From an uncultured Alphaproteobacteria bacterium (GTDB lineage Bacteria; Pseudomonadota; Alphaproteobacteria; HIMB59; GCA-002718135): DNA of 64,000 nt. Location: NCBI GenBank assembly GCA_902567855.1, contig CACFOQ010000005.1:1-64000 (forward strand). Direction: 5' to 3'. Shown one piece after another: positions 18,062 through 28,238 of this stretch. Position 1 is the first letter of the stretch; the number at the start of each line of letters is the position of its first letter. The translations under genes and the position numbers were made by a program. The notes under the pieces were generated by a model. That model searched no databases, was not told the origin of the DNA, and saw only the letters and a program-made list of their open reading frames with translations.

Positions 18062-18856
18062 CTACTTATAAACATTTTTTTTACTAGGAAATTTTTTTTG
18101 AATAACATCTAAGCAATATTTTTTTACAGATTTATTAATTATTGATTCAAAATTAGCATATGATTTAACAAACTTAGGTTTTTTTTCTGAGCTTGATATT
18201 CCTAATATGTCATCTATTACTAAAATTTGACCATCACAATCTTTAGAGGCCCCTATCCCAATAGTCGGAATTTTTAATTTTTTTGATATCTCATTGGCTA
18301 AAGTTTCTTTCATACATTCAAGAACAATCAAACATGAACCAGCTTTTTCAAGATTTAAAGCTAATTTGATAATTTTTTCCTTTTCATTTGGAAGTTTACC
18401 TGCTGTACGTATTTTATTAAAATTTTTATATTTTTGAGGAGTTACACCAATATGAGATACAACTTTGACTTTGTTTTTAGTTAAATATTTTACTATTCCT
18501 ATATTATTTTTGTCAGTCTCTATTTTGATTGATTGGCATTTAGTATAATTAATTATACTCTTAGCATTTGCTAATGCTTCTTTATTATTATTATAGGTAT
18601 TGAATGGCATATCAATAATTGTAAATGATTTTTTGCAGTACTGAGAAACAGCTCGACCATGCGCCTTCATCATTCCCAACGTAACTTTTTGAGTATTTTT
18701 CATCCCATAAATTGTTGACCCTAAAGAGTCACCTACCAAAACAATATCTACATAATTATCAATGATTTTAGCAACAGAAGAGGTATAAGCGGTCAAACAT
18801 GTAATTTTTCTTCCACCCTTTTGTTGTTGTATAGCTTTAATTGTTTTTTTAGTCAT
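18062..18856 (-). CDS. panB: 3-methyl-2-oxobutanoate hydroxymethyltransferase
   Basis: First committed step of pantothenate (CoA) synthesis: transfers a hydroxymethyl group from methylene-THF to 2-oxoisovalerate. It has 264 residues. Motifs are ITCLTAYTSSVAKIID, the Mg-binding VLVGDSLGSTIYG, MMKAHGRAV, the FTIIDMPFNTY strand, VVSHIGVTPQ and IPTIGIGASKDCDGQILVIDD. All match PanB. panC is not adjacent. It is upstream of dusA in the same orientation, with an 11-base gap, so probably co-transcribed. Confidence 0.95.
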   Translation of the reverse strand: MTKKTIKAIQQQKGGRKITCLTAYTSSVAKIIDNYVDIVLVGDSLGSTIYGMKNTQKVTLGMMKAHGRAVSQYCKKSFTIIDMPFNTYNNNKEALANAKSIINYTKCQSIKIETDKNNIGIVKYLTKNKVKVVSHIGVTPQKYKNFNKIRTAGKLPNEKEKIIKLALNLEKAGSCLIVLECMKETLANEISKKLKIPTIGIGASKDCDGQILVIDDILGISSSEKKPKFVKSYANFESIINKSVKKYCLDVIQKKFPSKKNVYK

Positions 18857-20509: not shown

Positions 20510-20529
20510 GTAGTCAATTTATATAGAAA

Positions 20530-21402
20530 ATGGTTAAAGAAAATGACAATCGTGATTTGAGTTTTTTACCTATACAAAACTCCTCTCCAAAATTATTATC
20601 ATTTGAAGATATTGAAAAGTATAACTCCAGTGGTTTCATTGCGCCTTTTAATGCGTTTTCTAAAAGTGAAATAAATAAGGTAAGAAAATCTGTAGATAAT
20701 TTGTTTTTTAAACTTCAATCATTTAAAGATGGTAGAGATAGTTATTCAATAAATTGCTATCAACATAAATCAAAATCAATTTGGAAAATTATCAATAATA
20801 CCAAAATATTAAATCACGTCGAGGATTTGATCGGTCCTAATATTATTTGTTGGGCGTCACATTTTTTTAATAAACTTCCAAATGATAATAGACCAGTTCC
20901 TTATCATCAAGATGCAAGTTATTGGTTAATGACTCCGGCAAGAACAGTTACTGTTTGGTTGGCCATAGATGATACTGATTTAGAAAATGCTCCGATGGAG
21001 TTTCTCCCTGGTTCACATAGGGTAGGCCCATTACCTTGGAAAGTTACAGATAAAAAAAATCCTGTATTGAGTCAAGAAATTACTGGTATTGAAAAATTTG
21101 GCAGCCCTTATTTAAATGTTCTTAAAGCTGGAGACTTTTCCTTACATGCTGATATGATTGCACATGGATCACTCCCAAACTTGTCTCATAGGAGAAGGTG
21201 TGGTTTAACAATTAGATATTGTAATCCTGAATCTACAAACCCTCTTGATCCCATGTATGCGGAAAAGGCTATACTTTGTAGAGGAATTAAACCAACTGGT
21301 AAGTGGAGTTCATGTAATGTAAATATGCCTTTAGAAGATGATCTTGCAATTATAGAATCTAATCCAATAGTAGAATTACCTAATCCACAATCTTTTCACT
21401 AA
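20530..21402 (+). CDS. Phytanoyl-CoA dioxygenase (PhyH) family oxygenase
   Basis: Predicted 2-oxoglutarate/Fe(II) dioxygenase, 290 residues. The facial triad is visible as His126-x-Asp128 in VPYHQDASYW and the distal His212 in DMIAHGS, followed by the 2OG-binding Arg in HRRRCGLTIRY. The sequence NAPMEFLPGSHRVG is typical of the PhyH family (PF05721). Bacterial PhyH members hydroxylate diverse small molecules, so the substrate cannot be read from sequence. It is the first of three consecutive oxygenase genes on the plus strand, with only nine bases to the next, suggesting one operon and pathway. Confidence 0.85.
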   Translation: MVKENDNRDLSFLPIQNSSPKLLSFEDIEKYNSSGFIAPFNAFSKSEINKVRKSVDNLFFKLQSFKDGRDSYSINCYQHKSKSIWKIINNTKILNHVEDLIGPNIICWASHFFNKLPNDNRPVPYHQDASYWLMTPARTVTVWLAIDDTDLENAPMEFLPGSHRVGPLPWKVTDKKNPVLSQEITGIEKFGSPYLNVLKAGDFSLHADMIAHGSLPNLSHRRRCGLTIRYCNPESTNPLDPMYAEKAILCRGIKPTGKWSSCNVNMPLEDDLAIIESNPIVELPNPQSFH

Positions 21403-21411
21403 AATTTCTTG

Positions 21412-22257
21412 ATGTCTCTCCAGGTCAACAAACTGCATAAAAAATTTGGTGCTGAAATAATAAATTTTGATTTGTCAAAAAGTTTAAACAACAAATATTT
21501 TAAAGAAATTTTAAAAAATTTTAATGAATATGGTATTTTGCTTTTCAGGAATCAAAATCTATCTATTAAAAATCAAGTAATATTTGGAAGAAAATTTGGA
21601 AAAGTTTTAATTCATGCTGTTAACCAGAATCATGCCAAAGAACACCCAGAAATTTATGTATTAAGTAACTTAGACAATAAAGGACAACCATCAGGAAAGC
21701 ATCCTGATCAAGGTTCTTTATATTGGCATACTGATGGATCATGGCGTAAAATTACAGGGCAAGCAACCATAATGGTTGCTGATATAATTCCATCTAAAGG
21801 AGGCGAAACCCATTTTTGTTGTATGGAAAATGCATATGATTCTCTAAGTGATAGCATGAAACTGAAAATTAATGATCTATTTGCCATTCATAATTTAGAT
21901 TTTTCTAGAAATAGAAGACATGGTCATGATCCTTTATCCAAAAAACAAAAAAATAATGCTCCTCCCGTAATTCATCCTGTTGTCAGAACTCATCCAAATA
22001 CAAGCAGAAAAAGTTTATTTCTAGGTGATCATGCAGAATATATAGAGGATATTGATTATTCAAAAGGAAGAAATTTTATTGAGCAATTAAACAAATTAGC
22101 AACTAAATCAAAATTTATTTATAAGCACAAGTACAAAGAAGGTGATGTGTTGGTTTGGGATAATCGCAGATTACTTCATAAAGGCACAAAATATGATACT
22201 GCTAAAGAAAAAAGAGTTATGCGCAGAACTACAATTATTGGAGAGGCACCTCAATGA
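21412..22257 (+). CDS. TauD/TfdA family dioxygenase (first copy)
   Basis: Predicted 2-oxoglutarate/Fe(II) dioxygenase. The N-terminal core GAEIINFDLSKS...YGILLFRNQNLSI is typical of TauD/TfdA. The iron site is HTD (WHTDGSW) and the distal His in WDNRRLLHKG, with the 2OG Arg in VMRRTT. The frame also opens at TTG 21409, but the ATG at 21412 is preferred, giving 281 residues. It overlaps the next gene by ATGA. The family includes taurine, 2,4-D and alkylsulfatase dioxygenases and carnitine/betaine-type hydroxylases; no sulfonate transporter is nearby, so taurine use is not implied. Confidence 0.85.
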   Translation: MSLQVNKLHKKFGAEIINFDLSKSLNNKYFKEILKNFNEYGILLFRNQNLSIKNQVIFGRKFGKVLIHAVNQNHAKEHPEIYVLSNLDNKGQPSGKHPDQGSLYWHTDGSWRKITGQATIMVADIIPSKGGETHFCCMENAYDSLSDSMKLKINDLFAIHNLDFSRNRRHGHDPLSKKQKNNAPPVIHPVVRTHPNTSRKSLFLGDHAEYIEDIDYSKGRNFIEQLNKLATKSKFIYKHKYKEGDVLVWDNRRLLHKGTKYDTAKEKRVMRRTTIIGEAPQ

Positions 22258-23084
22258 AAGTTGAATTACTATCAGGAGCTTTAGGAGCAGAAATTACAGA
22301 TATAGATTTGCGTAATACTTCAGACAATAATGTTGAAAAAATTAAAGATCTTTTATGGGAACACAAAGTAATTTTTTTTCGTGAACAGAATATTTCACAT
22401 CAAGAACAAATTGATATTGCCAAGTGTTTTGGTCCTATAGAATATCATGCATATGTTAAGGGATTACCTGATCATCCTGAAATATTAAGAATTGTTAAAG
22501 AGCCATTCGAAAAAAACAATTGGGGTGAAAATTGGCACAGTGATGTAAGTTATAATCCTGAACCTACTCAAGCTGTTATTTTAAAATCCGTTGAAATACC
22601 ACCTATTGGTGGTGATACAATGTTTGCTAATATGGAGCTTGCATGGGAAACACTAGATGAGGAATTAAAAAATCAAATAATAGATAAAAAAGCCTTACAT
22701 AGTTCTCTTGGAATGTCATTTTTTGTAGATAATTATGCTGGAATGGAAGCAAAAAAAGTAGATATAGACGAATATTCTAATGAGCATCCAATAGTAAGAA
22801 CACATCCTGAAACAGGAAAAAAAATTTTATATGTAAATTGGACATATACAAAAAAAATTATAGGTTTAAGTAAAAAAGAAAGCGATGAACTATTGATGAA
22901 AATTTTTAAGCATCAAGAAAGATTAGAATTAACATGTAGATTTAGGTGGACTAAAAATGCGGTGGCAATATGGGACAATAGAAGCGTGATACATTATGCA
23001 ATAGCTGACTATTTTCCTAATAGAGGTTTAGGTTACAGAAGAATTATGGACCGAGTAGCCATTAAAGGAGATAAACCTTTTTAA
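22254..23084 (+). CDS. TauD/TfdA family dioxygenase (second copy)
   Basis: A 276-residue 2-oxoglutarate/Fe(II) dioxygenase, related to but clearly distinct from the preceding gene. The N-terminus VELLSGALGAEITDIDLR with VIFFREQNIS is the standard TauD/TfdA start. The iron ligands are His95-x-Asp97 in NWHSDVSY and His248 in WDNRSVIHYA, and the 2OG Arg lies in YRRIMDR. A THPETGKKILYVN stretch is also typical. It overlaps the upstream copy by four bases, so the two are translationally coupled and may catalyse successive steps or form a heteromer. The substrate is unknown. Confidence 0.87.
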   Translation: MKVELLSGALGAEITDIDLRNTSDNNVEKIKDLLWEHKVIFFREQNISHQEQIDIAKCFGPIEYHAYVKGLPDHPEILRIVKEPFEKNNWGENWHSDVSYNPEPTQAVILKSVEIPPIGGDTMFANMELAWETLDEELKNQIIDKKALHSSLGMSFFVDNYAGMEAKKVDIDEYSNEHPIVRTHPETGKKILYVNWTYTKKIIGLSKKESDELLMKIFKHQERLELTCRFRWTKNAVAIWDNRSVIHYAIADYFPNRGLGYRRIMDRVAIKGDKPF

Positions 23085-23118
23085 TTTCAAAACTAAATTA
23101 TTTAAAAAAGATTAGTTT

Positions 23119-24615
23119 TTAAGTTATTTTGATCCAAGTTGATTTTACTTGAAGATAATTTTCTAGAGCTTGTGAACCGTTATCTCTTCCAATTCCAGAT
23201 TGTTTATATCCACCAAGAGGTATAGTTGAGTCAACACCTTCCTCATAGTTGTTTATATAAACTGTTCCTGCACGAATTTCTCTTGAGGCTCTAATTGCTT
23301 TGTTAATATCATTCGTCCACACACCAGCAGCTAGTCCATATTCAGAGTCATTAGCAATTGAAACAGCCTCCTCAAAATTAGAAAAAGCTAAAGTTGTTAG
23401 CACGGGTCCAAAAATTTCTTCTTGAGCAATCTTCATATTGTTCTTAACATTTTTAAAAATAGTAGGCTCAAAATAACAACCACCTGTTTCTTTCATTGTT
23501 ATATTTCCTCCAACTTCAATATCAGCTCCTTCTTTTTTGCCTATATTTACATATTTATGTATTTTTTCTAACTGTTCAGTATTTACTATTGCACCAGCAA
23601 ATGAATCTGGATTTAGTGGATCTGAAGGTTGCATTTTTTTACTTAATTGAACAACTTTATTGATGAAATCTTTTTCAATATCTTTTTGGATTATAAGTCT
23701 AGATCCTGCTGAACAAACCTCACCTTGATTTCCAAAGATAGCATAAGCAGATGCTTCTGCAGCTCTATCAAGATCATCACAATCTGCAAAAATAATATTT
23801 GGTGATTTTCCTCCACACTCCAGTTGCACTCTTTTCATATTCGATTGACCAGAATACTGAAGTACTAATTTACCAACTTCACCTGACCCAGTAAAAGCTA
23901 CACAATCAATATCATTATGAAGACATAACGATTTTCCTGTAATAGGTCCATCTCCTGGAAGTACTGAAAATACTCCATCAGGTACACCAGCTTCTGAGAG
24001 CAAAGAACCAATTTTAATAGCGCTCATTGGAGATTGTTCTGCAGGCTTTAATATAACAGAGTTACCAGTAATAAGCGCTGGAGCAATTTTCCATATTGCC
24101 ATCCATAATGGATAATTCCAAGGTACTATGGCTGCTACAACTCCGATTGGTTCTTTGGTAATTAAGCCCAAATATTCTTTTGAACTTGGTGAAATATCAT
24201 CAAAAAGTTTATCAATTATTTCAGCATACCATTCAATATTATCTATGCTAGTTGGTAAGTCAGCATTGTAAGTATCATTAATTGTTTTACCCATGTCTAT
24301 GGTATCAAGAAGTGATAACTCCAAACGATCTCTTTCCAATAGTATAGCAAATTTTAAAAGTATTTTTTTTCTTTCACCTGGTGAAAGATTTGACCAATAT
24401 CCTTTATTAAAAGTTTCTTTAGCTTTAGAAACAGCTAAATCAATATCTTCTTGCTCAGCAAAAAAAACTTGATTTACAATACTTCCGTCAATTGGAGAAA
24501 TATTTTCAAATGATTTTTCTGAAATTGATTTTTGATATTTACCATTAATAAATAATTGAGAGGGGTAATTTAAATTAGATTTTGTTTTTTTAATATTTTC
24601 AAAGGTTAAACTCAT
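23119..24615 (-). CDS. NAD(P)-dependent aldehyde dehydrogenase, PuuC/KauB-like
   Basis: Oxidises an aldehyde to its acid. It has 498 residues with the full ALDH set: PWNYPLWMAIWKIAPAL, KPAEQSP, FTGSGEVGK, the catalytic Glu266 in LECGGKSPN and the nucleophile Cys301 in NQGEVCSAGSR. The C-terminal GGYKQSGIGRDNGSQALENY resembles enzymes for gamma-glutamyl-aminobutyraldehyde, guanidinobutyraldehyde or betaine aldehyde. It is convergent with the oxygenase trio, so it may oxidise the aldehyde they release by hydroxylating and cleaving a C-N, C-S or C-O bond. That link is inference. Confidence 0.9.
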   Translation of the reverse strand: MSLTFENIKKTKSNLNYPSQLFINGKYQKSISEKSFENISPIDGSIVNQVFFAEQEDIDLAVSKAKETFNKGYWSNLSPGERKKILLKFAILLERDRLELSLLDTIDMGKTINDTYNADLPTSIDNIEWYAEIIDKLFDDISPSSKEYLGLITKEPIGVVAAIVPWNYPLWMAIWKIAPALITGNSVILKPAEQSPMSAIKIGSLLSEAGVPDGVFSVLPGDGPITGKSLCLHNDIDCVAFTGSGEVGKLVLQYSGQSNMKRVQLECGGKSPNIIFADCDDLDRAAEASAYAIFGNQGEVCSAGSRLIIQKDIEKDFINKVVQLSKKMQPSDPLNPDSFAGAIVNTEQLEKIHKYVNIGKKEGADIEVGGNITMKETGGCYFEPTIFKNVKNNMKIAQEEIFGPVLTTLAFSNFEEAVSIANDSEYGLAAGVWTNDINKAIRASREIRAGTVYINNYEEGVDSTIPLGGYKQSGIGRDNGSQALENYLQVKSTWIKIT

Positions 24616-24696
24616 TATTGGTCATATATACTATTATCTTTTTTTAAGCATCCTTTTTTAGAGTTGGGAAATATGAAATCTTGATATGAGTAAATT

Positions 24697-25203
24697 TTAT
24701 AAATTTATTTTTTTTATATAAAAAGAATACAGCATTAAAAAATATCCCCAAAAAATAACCATTGTTGTCATAGCTAAAGTTATATTTTTACTAGAAGCTA
24801 TATCCAGTGGGATACCTAAATAATAGGTAGGGGGAGCAAGTACGGCACCTATCAAGAAAGATAGTAATAAATAATTTTTTAAAAAAACAAGAACATTTAC
24901 AAATAAAGTTGTAAAGCTAGGCCAGAGTACTAAAAACCAAATTGGCATATAGCCTATCATAATATTAGACTTAATATTAAATAGTTGAGTATATCCAAGA
25001 ATACTATCAAACAAATATCCAATAAATGAAAAGAGCAGACATATTTTTAATGCTCGAATTTTAAATTTAATAAAATAGAAAAAAGTAGACAAATATAAAA
25101 TTCCTACAACAATACCAAGTAAAGGATAATTGTAATATTCACCAAAAACACAAAATATCCATGTTAATTGATATCCTGTTAGTGTTAAAAATATGTTTTT
25201 CAT
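24697..25203 (-). CDS. DUF2878 family membrane protein
   Basis: A 168-residue polytopic membrane protein with about five to six hydrophobic helices. The start LTLTGYQLTWIFCVFGEYYNYP, the middle LFDSILGYTQLF and PIWFLVLWPSFTTLFVN, and the later GAVLAPPTYYLG match the DUF2878 family as I recall it. In other proteobacteria DUF2878 genes often sit near fatty-acid or cyclopropane-synthase genes; none are here. Function unknown. It is on the same strand as the aldehyde dehydrogenase, 80 bases upstream of it. Confidence 0.7.
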   Translation of the reverse strand: MKNIFLTLTGYQLTWIFCVFGEYYNYPLLGIVVGILYLSTFFYFIKFKIRALKICLLFSFIGYLFDSILGYTQLFNIKSNIMIGYMPIWFLVLWPSFTTLFVNVLVFLKNYLLLSFLIGAVLAPPTYYLGIPLDIASSKNITLAMTTMVIFWGYFLMLYSFYIKKINL

Positions 25204-25300
25204 AAATTTGTGTAAATATATAGTGCATTATATTTAATATTGTATTTATTTATCATCTAAAATTTTGTACTATTTTTTTTAATTGCAAGATTGATTTAAG

Positions 25301-26218
25301 ATGACTGAAAAAAACTCAAATTATAAAGATGTGGATGTAACAAGTCCAGGAAACTCAGATTTAAACAATATAAATGAAAAAATAGATTTTATGAATATTG
25401 ATGAAACAGATTTTGAATCGATGTCTCTTGGAGAAAAAAAACGCCATCTTGAAGTTGAAGGATATACTATTCTTCCTAAAGCTGTAGATGCTTCAAAGAT
25501 TGAACAGATAAAAAAAGAAATGAAAGATGCACCTATGCAGACAAAGGATTATAGTGACTGCCAGACTTTTCATTTAGAGCCTCAATGGTATAGTCCTGCA
25601 GTTGCGTCCTTGATAGCTAACCCACTAGTAGTTGAATTTCTTGAAGAGTTATGTGGTCCAGAAATAATTTTTACAAGGGGTTTTTTTCATCGAACACTTC
25701 CGGGCTCACCTCCTGTATCAATGCATACTGATGGACAGCCATTCGGCTCTTCAATTTTTGGATATGAGGGAAGTTCTCCCAAACTTTTACGTGTAATTTA
25801 TTATTTTGATGATTTAACTAAAGAACGTGCACCGTTTAGAATTTTACCACGATCCCATCTTTCTTTTCATGCTGAAGCCAATCCATATAAAAGATATAAA
25901 TCTCATCCAGAAGAAATCACTATATGTGCCGAAGCAGGAACTGCTATAGTTTTCCCAGTTAATATATTTCATGGTGTTCATCCCAATTTAGCTGATACTC
26001 GCCGTACTATGGTACAATTTGGTTATCGTCCAATTTGGGCAGGCCCTATTAAACCTATGGAAGAGTGGGATCCTGAACTTGTAGATAAGGCACCTAAAGA
26101 AACTAAACGTTTTCTTAAAAGTGTTAATAGTTCAGGAGTTGAATGGGAACAGCCTCACAAACCCAAAGGAATGAAATCAAAAGCCTCAGCTATTAATCCT
26201 AGTAGGTGGGATAAATAA
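25301..26218 (+). CDS. Phytanoyl-CoA dioxygenase (PhyH) family oxygenase (second copy)
   Basis: A 305-residue predicted 2-oxoglutarate/Fe(II) dioxygenase. A polar, probably disordered 35-residue N-terminus leads to LEVEGYTILPKAVD, the usual PhyH opening. Iron ligands are His142-x-Asp144 in VSMHTDGQPFG and a distal His in NIFHGVHPN (224 or 227), with the 2OG Arg in DTRRTM. It is only distantly similar to the PhyH gene at 20.5 kb. It stands between two membrane-protein genes, and the YczE-type gene downstream may be in the same unit. The substrate is unknown. Confidence 0.82.
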   Translation: MTEKNSNYKDVDVTSPGNSDLNNINEKIDFMNIDETDFESMSLGEKKRHLEVEGYTILPKAVDASKIEQIKKEMKDAPMQTKDYSDCQTFHLEPQWYSPAVASLIANPLVVEFLEELCGPEIIFTRGFFHRTLPGSPPVSMHTDGQPFGSSIFGYEGSSPKLLRVIYYFDDLTKERAPFRILPRSHLSFHAEANPYKRYKSHPEEITICAEAGTAIVFPVNIFHGVHPNLADTRRTMVQFGYRPIWAGPIKPMEEWDPELVDKAPKETKRFLKSVNSSGVEWEQPHKPKGMKSKASAINPSRWDK

Positions 26219-26277
26219 TATCCGTAATTTATTCAGATAGAGAACCAGTTTCCTAATCTATATAGGTACTGAAACTT

Positions 26278-26943
26278 ATGTTAAAAAAAATAATTTATGC
26301 ATTAACACTTAAAGCAATTCCTAAACTTTATTGGAGTTCTTCACATGAATATAATTTAAAACCAAAAATAATAACTGTTTTATATTTAATTTTTGGGTTA
26401 ATATTATTTGGTTTAGGTGAGACATTAATAGTAACAGCAAATATTGGAGTTAGCCCCTGGTTCGTGCTTCATCAAGGGTTGTCTTTTATCACTGGTTATA
26501 CAATTGGAGTAACTACATTTTTAGTTAGTATAATTTCCCTACTATTTTGGTTTCCATTAAAACAAAAACCAGGAATTGCTACAATTCTAAATGCTATACT
26601 GATATCAGTAGTTATTGATTTATCTTTACCATTTTTACCAAAACCAGATATTTTTTTATTACAATTATTTCAAGTAATTTTTGCCATACTAATCATTGGA
26701 ATAGGAAGTGGATTTTATTTAGCAGCTAACTTAGGTCCAGGTCCAAGGGACGGACTGATGACGGGCATCAATAAGCAAACTGGTTTGTCTTTTTCTCTAA
26801 TCAGATTAGTACTTGAGTTAAGCGTTGTAGGCCTTGGTTTTTGGTTAGGTGGTATAGTTGGTATAGGAACTGTTCTATATGCGGTAGGAATAGGTTATTC
26901 TGTTTCTTTAGGTTTATTTTTGGTGGGAAAATTTTATAAATAA
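26278..26943 (+). CDS. YczE/YitT-type integral membrane protein
   Basis: A 221-residue membrane protein with about five helices. Two Gly/Pro-rich blocks repeat, GLGETLIVTANIGVSPWFVLHQGLS and GSGFYLAANLGPGPRDGLMTGI, which is the hallmark of the YczE/YyaS/YitT family. The biochemical role of this family is unresolved; a transporter function is often supposed. It starts at ATG 26278, after a small inverted repeat (AGTTTC ... GAAACT) in the 59-base gap to the PhyH gene. It is convergent with the RhaM-type gene. Confidence 0.82.
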   Translation: MLKKIIYALTLKAIPKLYWSSSHEYNLKPKIITVLYLIFGLILFGLGETLIVTANIGVSPWFVLHQGLSFITGYTIGVTTFLVSIISLLFWFPLKQKPGIATILNAILISVVIDLSLPFLPKPDIFLLQLFQVIFAILIIGIGSGFYLAANLGPGPRDGLMTGINKQTGLSFSLIRLVLELSVVGLGFWLGGIVGIGTVLYAVGIGYSVSLGLFLVGKFYK

Positions 26944-26959
26944 AAATTGTTATAGGTAT

Positions 26960-27283
26960 TTAATCTTTTCTAAAAACTTCTTCTAATTCTACCCAGCCCT
27001 CAAACTTTTCTTGGTGTTCAAGAGGTCTAAACATATTTTCATGAAACTTTTCCCATTCTATAAATCTTGGATGATTTTTCATTTTTGTCATATCTTTTTC
27101 AAAATCATTACCATGATATTCAAAAAAAGCAAAAAGTCTGTCTTCTTGTGCAAAAATTGAATAATTTTTAATTTTACTTTCTGAAATTTTTTCTAATATA
27201 TCAGGCCAAACATCAGAGTGGGTTTTTTTATACTCTGCAATAAACTCAGGCTTAATACCTATTACTAACCCTTTTCTAATCAT
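26960..27283 (-). CDS. L-rhamnose mutarotase (RhaM) family protein
   Basis: A 107-residue dimeric alpha/beta-barrel-type protein that interconverts alpha and beta anomers of L-rhamnose or a related deoxysugar. Typical sequences are VIGIKPEFIAEYKKTHSDVWPDIL, containing the catalytic His, then IKNYSIF and LFAFFEYHGNDFEKDM. The length matches RhaM (about 104). No rhamnose isomerase, kinase or aldolase gene is in the window, so it may act on another sugar (for example fucose) or in a pathway encoded elsewhere. Confidence 0.85.
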   Translation of the reverse strand: MIRKGLVIGIKPEFIAEYKKTHSDVWPDILEKISESKIKNYSIFAQEDRLFAFFEYHGNDFEKDMTKMKNHPRFIEWEKFHENMFRPLEHQEKFEGWVELEEVFRKD

Positions 27284-27334: not shown

Positions 27335-27751
27335 TTATTCAAATTTATCTGAGTAAAACCAAGGAATTAATATTGTTAAAACAATATATAAACAATAAAA
27401 CAATACTATAGGTAATAAAATATTATAGATTCCAATTGCAGCTATTGGTCCAAAGATAGAAGCATAAATTGTAAATAGAACATTTGAACCTAAAAACCAA
27501 TACCCCCCTGATTTTTTTAGTTTATATAAAAGAAATATTCCATAAATTATACCAATTTCAAAAATTATGAAAACAATCAAATCTATTGTTGTGGGCTTGA
27601 TAAAATAATCTACTCCTGGAAAACTTGCACCTTCTCCAAAATATCCAATAATTACAAATCTATAAATGGTATCGATTGTATCTCCAGCTAAGAGAATTAT
27701 CATTACCCAATATACCAATTTAAATGAATTTTCTTTAAAAGCTTCACTCAT
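27335..27751 (-). CDS. Hypothetical membrane protein
   Basis: A 138-residue protein with four predicted membrane helices (about 12-32, 52-75, 82-104, 106-130), separated by short charged turns. I recognise no family. It lies ten bases downstream of gcrA on the same strand, so it may share its transcript. The sequence has normal codon bias for this genome and a sensible helix pattern, which supports a real gene. Confidence 0.6.
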   Translation of the reverse strand: MSEAFKENSFKLVYWVMIILLAGDTIDTIYRFVIIGYFGEGASFPGVDYFIKPTTIDLIVFIIFEIGIIYGIFLLYKLKKSGGYWFLGSNVLFTIYASIFGPIAAIGIYNILLPIVLFYCLYIVLTILIPWFYSDKFE

Positions 27752-27761
27752 AGTAAAAAAA

Positions 27762-28238
27762 TTATTTATATTTTACTGATCTATTTACTGGCAAAGGTTT
27801 TGCCTCTTCTTTTTCCGGAATCACATAAGCTATAGCACAATGATCTAAACAATATGGCTTATCATCAAATCTTTCTTTACCACAAAAATGAAAATCAGAT
27901 TCATCAGGATGACCCATAGGCCATTCACAACCTCTTTTTGAACTAGAAATAAAAATATTTTTAACAGAAGGTTGAAACTTGCCAGTATTAATTTGATTTG
28001 TTTCTGACTCTTGTTTTTCAAAATTTAATTTTGGCATTACTGGTGAGCGTGCTTTTTTTCTATCAGGTTTAACCGCGGTTCTTCTTATCGGCGAAGGTCT
28101 TCTTTCTAATCCAATTCTATGGGCCTTGCCAACAACAGCATTTTTCGTAAAACCTAATAATTTACCTATTTGAGCTGTAGGAAGTCCTTGATCCCATAAT
28201 TCTTTTAAGCGAAGGACATTATCATCATTCCAAGACAT
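27762..28238 (-). CDS. gcrA: GcrA cell cycle regulator
   Basis: Alphaproteobacterial sigma-70-associated regulator that activates promoters bearing methylated GANTC sites. It has 158 residues. The N-terminal DNA-binding domain MSWNDDNVLRLKELWDQGLP, followed by TAQIGKLLGFTKNAVVGKAHR, is nearly diagnostic. After a basic Pro-rich linker, the C-terminal domain holds the conserved Cys/His set CEWPMGHP..FHFCG..YCLDHCAIAY that contacts RNA polymerase. It normally works with the CcrM methylase, which is not in this window. It lies divergent from pgk, with 148 bases between them. Confidence 0.95.
   Translation of the reverse strand: MSWNDDNVLRLKELWDQGLPTAQIGKLLGFTKNAVVGKAHRIGLERRPSPIRRTAVKPDRKKARSPVMPKLNFEKQESETNQINTGKFQPSVKNIFISSSKRGCEWPMGHPDESDFHFCGKERFDDKPYCLDHCAIAYVIPEKEEAKPLPVNRSVKYK

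Follow-up and report, generated by a model that had tools for sequence, protein, structure and literature searches.

In Escherichia coli, the taurine dioxygenase TauD binds the sulfonate of taurine through His70 and Arg270, and a network that includes Asp94, Asn95, and Ser158 positions the amine (PMC9304159). So-called taurine dioxygenases occur without a sulfite reductase in several streamlined marine bacteria, and for SAR86 one suggestion has been that these enzymes have a different function (PMC11582366). Flexible islands at fixed positions, devoted to phosphorus, have been reported in the order HIMB59 (PMC10734472). Here, we analyzed a stretch of 64,000 nucleotides (the window; contig CACFOQ010000005.1) from an uncultured alphaproteobacterium of this order, presumably a member of the marine AEGEAN-169/HIMB59 group, in which an island of eight genes is bounded by panB and a TPR-glycosyltransferase gene on one side and by TM138-gcrA-pgk on the other. 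It encodes four 2-oxoglutarate (2OG)/Fe(II) oxygenases and an aldehyde dehydrogenase (ALDH). Comparison with related genomes shows that the island was assembled from genes of separate history and is not one conserved pathway. The explanation that we favor, and to which we give an even chance of being right, is a genus-specific mixed cargo at a variable site, in which genes with separate histories lie side by side, TauD2 and the ALDH would provide a two-step reaction, and the TauD-type enzymes would act on small anions other than taurine. The features are as follows.

20530..21402, plus strand: PhyH1, PhyH-type 2OG/Fe(II) oxygenase (PF05721, 87 bits; HxD motif intact, His126-Gln-Asp128)
21409..22257, plus strand: TauD1, TauD/TfdA-type 2OG oxygenase (PF02668, 195 bits, and active-site columns)
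22254..23084, plus strand: TauD2, TauD/RdpA-type 2OG oxygenase (PF02668, 193 bits; start overlaps the TauD1 stop)
23119..24615, minus strand: ALDH, nearest to the KauB/PuuC class (PF00171, 548 bits)
24697..25203, minus strand: DUF2878 membrane protein (PF11086, 76 bits)
25301..26218, plus strand: PhyH2, divergent PhyH-type oxygenase (PF05721, 46 bits)
26278..26943, plus strand: YczE family membrane protein (NCBIfam NF052291, 212 bits, cut-off 205)
26960..27283, minus strand: RhaM-family protein (PF05336, 94 bits)
27335..27751, minus strand: TM138, small membrane protein between the RhaM gene and gcrA (in comparison genome G005, a relative with 40% identity occupies this site; Pfam and NCBIfam searches without a match)
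27762..28238, minus strand: gcrA, conserved gene flanking the variable site on the right
18062..18856, minus strand: panB, conserved gene flanking the variable site on the left

The full gene set was found together only in three congeneric genomes, each of them incomplete: that of the window (G000) and the single-cell genomes AG-447-P01 (G001) and AG-426-I04 (G002); further G-numbers denote other comparison genomes. Co-occurrence of the members in independent lineages, the mark of a single conserved catabolic cluster, was thus not observed, the full set being confined to one genus. Among 100 relatives, TauD1 has close matches in the two congeners only. Its orthologues with 54% identity belong to three Rhodospirillaceae-type metagenome-assembled genomes (MAGs), where an HpsN-like dehydrogenase (scoring 376 bits against sulfopropanediol dehydrogenase and 247 against histidinol dehydrogenase) is encoded nearby, joined on the longest of the contigs by a TRAP transporter (L128:8004-15301); no other island gene stands beside them on the MAG stretches examined. 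This MAG neighborhood is a possible sulfonate-use cluster. Outside the genus, TauD2 was found among the 100 relatives only in G004 (66%), G005 (83%), and G006 (79%), that is, in three genera and three contexts. In G004, genes for amino-acid-type ABC permeases, a class II aldolase, a cysteine-desulfurase-like protein, and the orthologue of the island ALDH are nearby; in G005, TauD2 is followed after 33 bases by a Rieske oxygenase gene, and the run also includes VOC, cupin, and glutamine-synthetase-like genes; in G006, it adjoins katG. In the latter two genera, TauD2 lives without any orthologue of the island ALDH. The best match of PhyH1 outside the genus reaches 41% (385 class genomes), and for PhyH2 the other class genomes sampled yielded no relative at E<=1e-30. 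Plasmid relatives (<=37% for TauD1 and PhyH1, <=42% for TauD2) have mixed contexts that suggest no substrate, and among viral contigs and phage records nothing related to TauD1, PhyH1, or PhyH2 merited further attention. The Rieske/VOC/cupin/glutamine-synthetase-like genes, with a MetX-like gene, are common to two genera (G000:C10:26000-42000 = L064, 2017-10078; L155:10207-17026); in G005 the run has TauD2 as its neighbor and, in G000, genes for an agmatinase-like protein, an ALDH, and a TmpA-like 2OG enzyme (337 of 400 bits).

The best solved relative of the island ALDH is KauB (550 bits, full-length alignment), and PuuC is its best-scoring ALDH equivalog, albeit below the cut-off (548 of 850 bits); no equivalog cut-off was reached. 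KauB and PuuC enzymes act on omega-aminoaldehydes; no putrescine or arginine pathway genes lie beside the island ALDH. Its orthologues in G034 (89%) and G027 (86%) have a gamma-butyrobetaine-dioxygenase-like enzyme on one side and a class II aldolase on the other, and a ProXWV transporter accompanies them. Core proteins of G000 and G034 share 51-84% identity (median 68, n=10), and the neighbors of the G034 ALDH share 59-70% with their counterparts in G000, which sit at another locus (G000:C8) with a different ALDH. The cluster without the island-type ALDH is intact in the window genome. With the ALDH above the core background and its cluster mates at it, the comparison shows that the ALDH, judged by protein identity, moved horizontally between lineages, alone. 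Island-type ALDHs occur with quite different partners in three genomes. The island thereby illustrates how gene neighborhood alone can mislead, since the close relatives of its ALDH sit in another cluster whose remainder is intact elsewhere in the genome. The C8 cluster itself (G000:C8:47500-67400, L062, 2730-12365) comprises genes for a ProXWV transporter, an ALDH, EamA, a gamma-butyrobetaine-dioxygenase-like 2OG enzyme, a class II aldolase, a cysteine-desulfurase-like pyridoxal phosphate enzyme, and an HpaI-type aldolase; it looks like a quaternary-amine catabolic route and is partly common to G002, G004, G027, and G034.

The position of the island is itself variable. Both flanks of the interval from gcrA to panB/dusA are kept in G007, G008, G027, G034, and this genus, with content that differs per genus; in G004, G005, and G006 only the gcrA side could be compared. 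In other genera, the side of gcrA facing panB/dusA is occupied by genes for an MFS transporter, an SDR, or a homocysteine methyltransferase, by sugar epimerase genes, by a sugar ABC operon, or by small, unrelated genes. Different content between the same conserved flanks is what characterizes a flexible genomic island, and this is what we found. Like the HIMB59 islands described for phosphorus, which belong to the same bacterial order, the site keeps its place between conserved genes while its cargo varies; unlike theirs, its content does not share one function (PMC10734472); a text search of that report found no mention of gcrA.

Active-site columns of TauD1 and TauD2 were read from alignments to E. 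coli TauD and pJP4 TfdA. Both proteins keep the iron ligands His99, Asp101, and His255, the 2OG-binding Arg266 (TauD numbering), and the sulfonate contacts His70 and Arg270, and share with E. coli TauD the fold family and this core. They differ from it in overall identity (29-36%), in having no TauABC transporter adjoining, and in the loss of the amine-positioning network: Asn95 is replaced by Gly in TauD2 and by Ser in TauD1, Asp94 is replaced in both, and Ser158 is kept in TauD1 only. Neither reaches the curated TauD cut-off (NF007104, 313 bits; scores of 170.5 and 228.6). Their closest solved relatives are aryloxyalkanoate dioxygenases, of the TfdA type for TauD1 and RdpA for TauD2; the position of His70, however, is Lys in pJP4 TfdA and not His in RdpA, and no aromatic-degradation genes are near the island. 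With His70/Arg270 kept and Asp94/Asn95 lost, an anionic substrate other than taurine is the best reading, and TauD1 and TauD2 are probably hydroxylases of small non-taurine anions, which may be sulfonates or carboxylates. This combination makes the SAR86 suggestion directly testable on two small proteins. Family searches, on which all genome-wide absences given here rest (assembly ∼82% complete), found no member of the sulfite/nitrite reductase family in the window genome or six relatives, in contrast to 11 of the 14 control genomes. TauE/SafE-family proteins are present in the window genome; considered as a marker of sulfite export, this family proved too general, occurring in all 14 controls. 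As to the PhyH-type enzymes, a SyrB2-type halogenase was considered for PhyH1 and rejected: the motif is HxD (His-Gln-Asp) and not HxA/G, which argues for a hydroxylase, and TIGR01762 scored 73 of 226 bits. PHYHD1, SyrB2, MysH, and EvdO share the PhyH domain, but similarity to them is weak, and PhyH2 has hardly any sequence relationship to a solved structure. Models built with AlphaFold for PhyH1 and PhyH2, from alignments of three sequences, were unusable (mean pLDDT, the predicted local distance difference test, of 33-35).

These results bear on an earlier note, made from the window sequence alone. Its gene positions and families are confirmed, with two PhyH and two TauD genes, an ALDH, two membrane proteins (DUF2878 and YczE), and a RhaM-family gene within 20530-27283; its RhaM mutarotase stands as a family assignment, whereas the rhamnose mutarotase equivalog does not (TIGR02625, 38.6 of 99.6 bits). 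It was right to expect a compound different from taurine, given the lost amine-binding residues and the unreached TauD cut-off, and to identify no substrate, as none can be assigned to the island enzymes. Its statement that no sulfite-handling gene is present holds for sulfite reductase in the searched assembly, and the TauE/SafE family is too general to count.

PhyH1 and TauD1 are separated by 6 bases, TauD1 and TauD2 overlap in ATGA, and the ALDH gene is convergent to them on the opposite strand. From strand and spacing, PhyH1-TauD1-TauD2 can be inferred to form one transcription unit, and the genes would fall into at least four such units rather than one operon: PhyH1-TauD1-TauD2 (plus), DUF2878-ALDH (minus), PhyH2-YczE (plus), and gcrA-TM138-RhaM (minus). 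A shared terminator between TauD2 and the ALDH was discarded, the hairpin there being no better than in shuffled sequence, and promoter-like matches were likewise at chance level. The clustering of the oxygenase genes is real and not by chance: the genome has eight PhyH and four TauD genes, and the probability that 4 of these 12 lie within 5.7 kb is about 1e-4. Ratios of nonsynonymous to synonymous substitution rates (dN/dS) of 0.035-0.26 between congeners indicate purifying selection and therefore functional island genes.

Under the explanation that we favor, TauD1 and TauD2 would hold a small substrate other than taurine by its anionic group, as their residues suggest. By analogy with the known TauD reaction, hydroxylation adjacent to a leaving group would free an aldehyde, and the KauB/PuuC-class ALDH would oxidise the aldehyde made by TauD2; PhyH1 and PhyH2 would each act on separate substrates. 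TauD2 with the ALDH is the best-supported candidate link and the likeliest two-step reaction in the island, as the two genes are found near each other, at unrelated loci, in two genera. The pairing of oxygenase and ALDH that the earlier note proposed thus recurs in a second genus, but the full set does not co-occur outside this one. Several points weigh against our explanation. In G004, several genes separate TauD2 from the ALDH, and the class II aldolase and cysteine-desulfurase-like protein next to that ALDH may be its true partners. In addition, all nine genes, RhaM and TM138 included, are kept together in the three congeners, which shared function would equally explain.

Shared function is the premise of the earlier note's own view, in which the four oxygenases and the ALDH form one undescribed pathway acting on a single dissolved compound. 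Clustering beyond chance, conservation in three congeners, and purifying selection speak for it; scattered orthologues with different partners, an ALDH that moved alone, at least four predicted transcription units, and the variable site largely undercut it and leave it very doubtful. That note had itself named orthologues scattered without co-occurrence as the contrary outcome, and this is largely what the genomes hold (TauD2 in three contexts, TauD1 without island partners, the ALDH elsewhere). A narrower version, in which TauD1 and TauD2 with PhyH1 and the ALDH would oxidise an anionic compound of the sea (e.g., a betaine or sulfonate derivative) by a new route, in a streamlined oceanic clade that lacks sulfite reductase, has a small probability; if true, the gain would be the carbon skeleton rather than sulfur. 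The two TauD-type enzymes might instead be dioxygenases that desulfonate compounds other than taurine, with the ALDH oxidising the aldehyde that remains after sulfite release. The sulfonate-holding pair kept in both, unlike in TfdA (Lys) and RdpA, is consistent with such a role, as are the HpsN-like sulfopropanediol dehydrogenase and TRAP transporter beside TauD1 orthologues. We nevertheless consider desulfonation quite improbable because the window genome and six relatives have no sulfite reductase, the island has no sulfonate transporter, and the HpsN neighborhood, which stems from a single clade, faces away from TauD1.

Alternatively, the ALDH could work in trans with the C8 cluster, oxidising the omega-trimethylaminoaldehyde of a trimethyllysine/butyrobetaine-type quaternary-amine route, so that its position in the island would be incidental. 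The location of its orthologues inside the corresponding cluster in G034 and G027, the intactness of that cluster minus the island ALDH in the window genome, and the omega-aminoaldehyde substrates generally associated with KauB/PuuC enzymes fit this possibility. It is unlikely, though, since the C8 cluster already has its own, different ALDH, its dioxygenase falls below both relevant cut-offs (butyrobetaine dioxygenase, 308 of 415 bits; trimethyllysine dioxygenase, 219 of 268 bits), and TauD2 in G005 and G006 needs neither. The literature (a limited collection) yielded nothing useful on a connection of TauD with HpsN or with class II aldolase, or of marine bacteria with trimethyllysine. The least probable of the readings weighed here has PhyH1 modifying a surface glycan with the adjacent TPR-glycosyltransferase, and RhaM acting on a sugar. 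A methyltransferase-like open reading frame (ORF) of the congeners that overlaps PhyH1 and is divergent from the TPR-glycosyltransferase gene agrees with it, as do distant PhyH1 relatives (30-34%) within polysaccharide clusters of Ruegeria B32 and Sphingobium RAC03; similarly distant relatives, however, occur in UbiD-type, amidase, glycyl-radical, or lipid clusters, and the ORF is missing in the window genome.

Island gene order is kept in G001 and G002, although genes were gained or lost at three junctions. The ORF just mentioned (189 amino acids, methyltransferase-like by motifs alone, without a family match) overlaps the PhyH1 start in both genomes. It is cleanly missing from the window (20515-20545). 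Its start and that of PhyH1 share GAAAATG(A/G)TTAAA, so that short direct repeats delimit the missing segment, the pattern expected for loss (or gain) of the ORF by short-repeat recombination. In G001, a 1,289-amino-acid secreted-looking protein with a peptidoglycan-binding domain is encoded between TauD1 and TauD2 (L025:10441-14310), and in G002 a homocysteine S-methyltransferase-family gene sits between YczE and RhaM. PhyH1 is 95-96% identical in the congeners, and TauD1 is 95% and 88% identical. The G002 TauD1 is unusually diverged at synonymous sites (dS of 0.57-0.80 versus 0.04-0.39 for the other genes), which suggests allele replacement. G003 is assigned to the same genus, but its pgk is only 58% identical to that of the window (L135, G003:C33), and no TauD-family gene was found in it; it may be more distant than this assignment implies, or its sequence may be incomplete here. 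Homocysteine S-methyltransferase-family genes recur near gcrA in three genera (G002, G006, and G060), at exact places that differ (L026:3217-4143; L137:6757-7662; L140:10459-11370).

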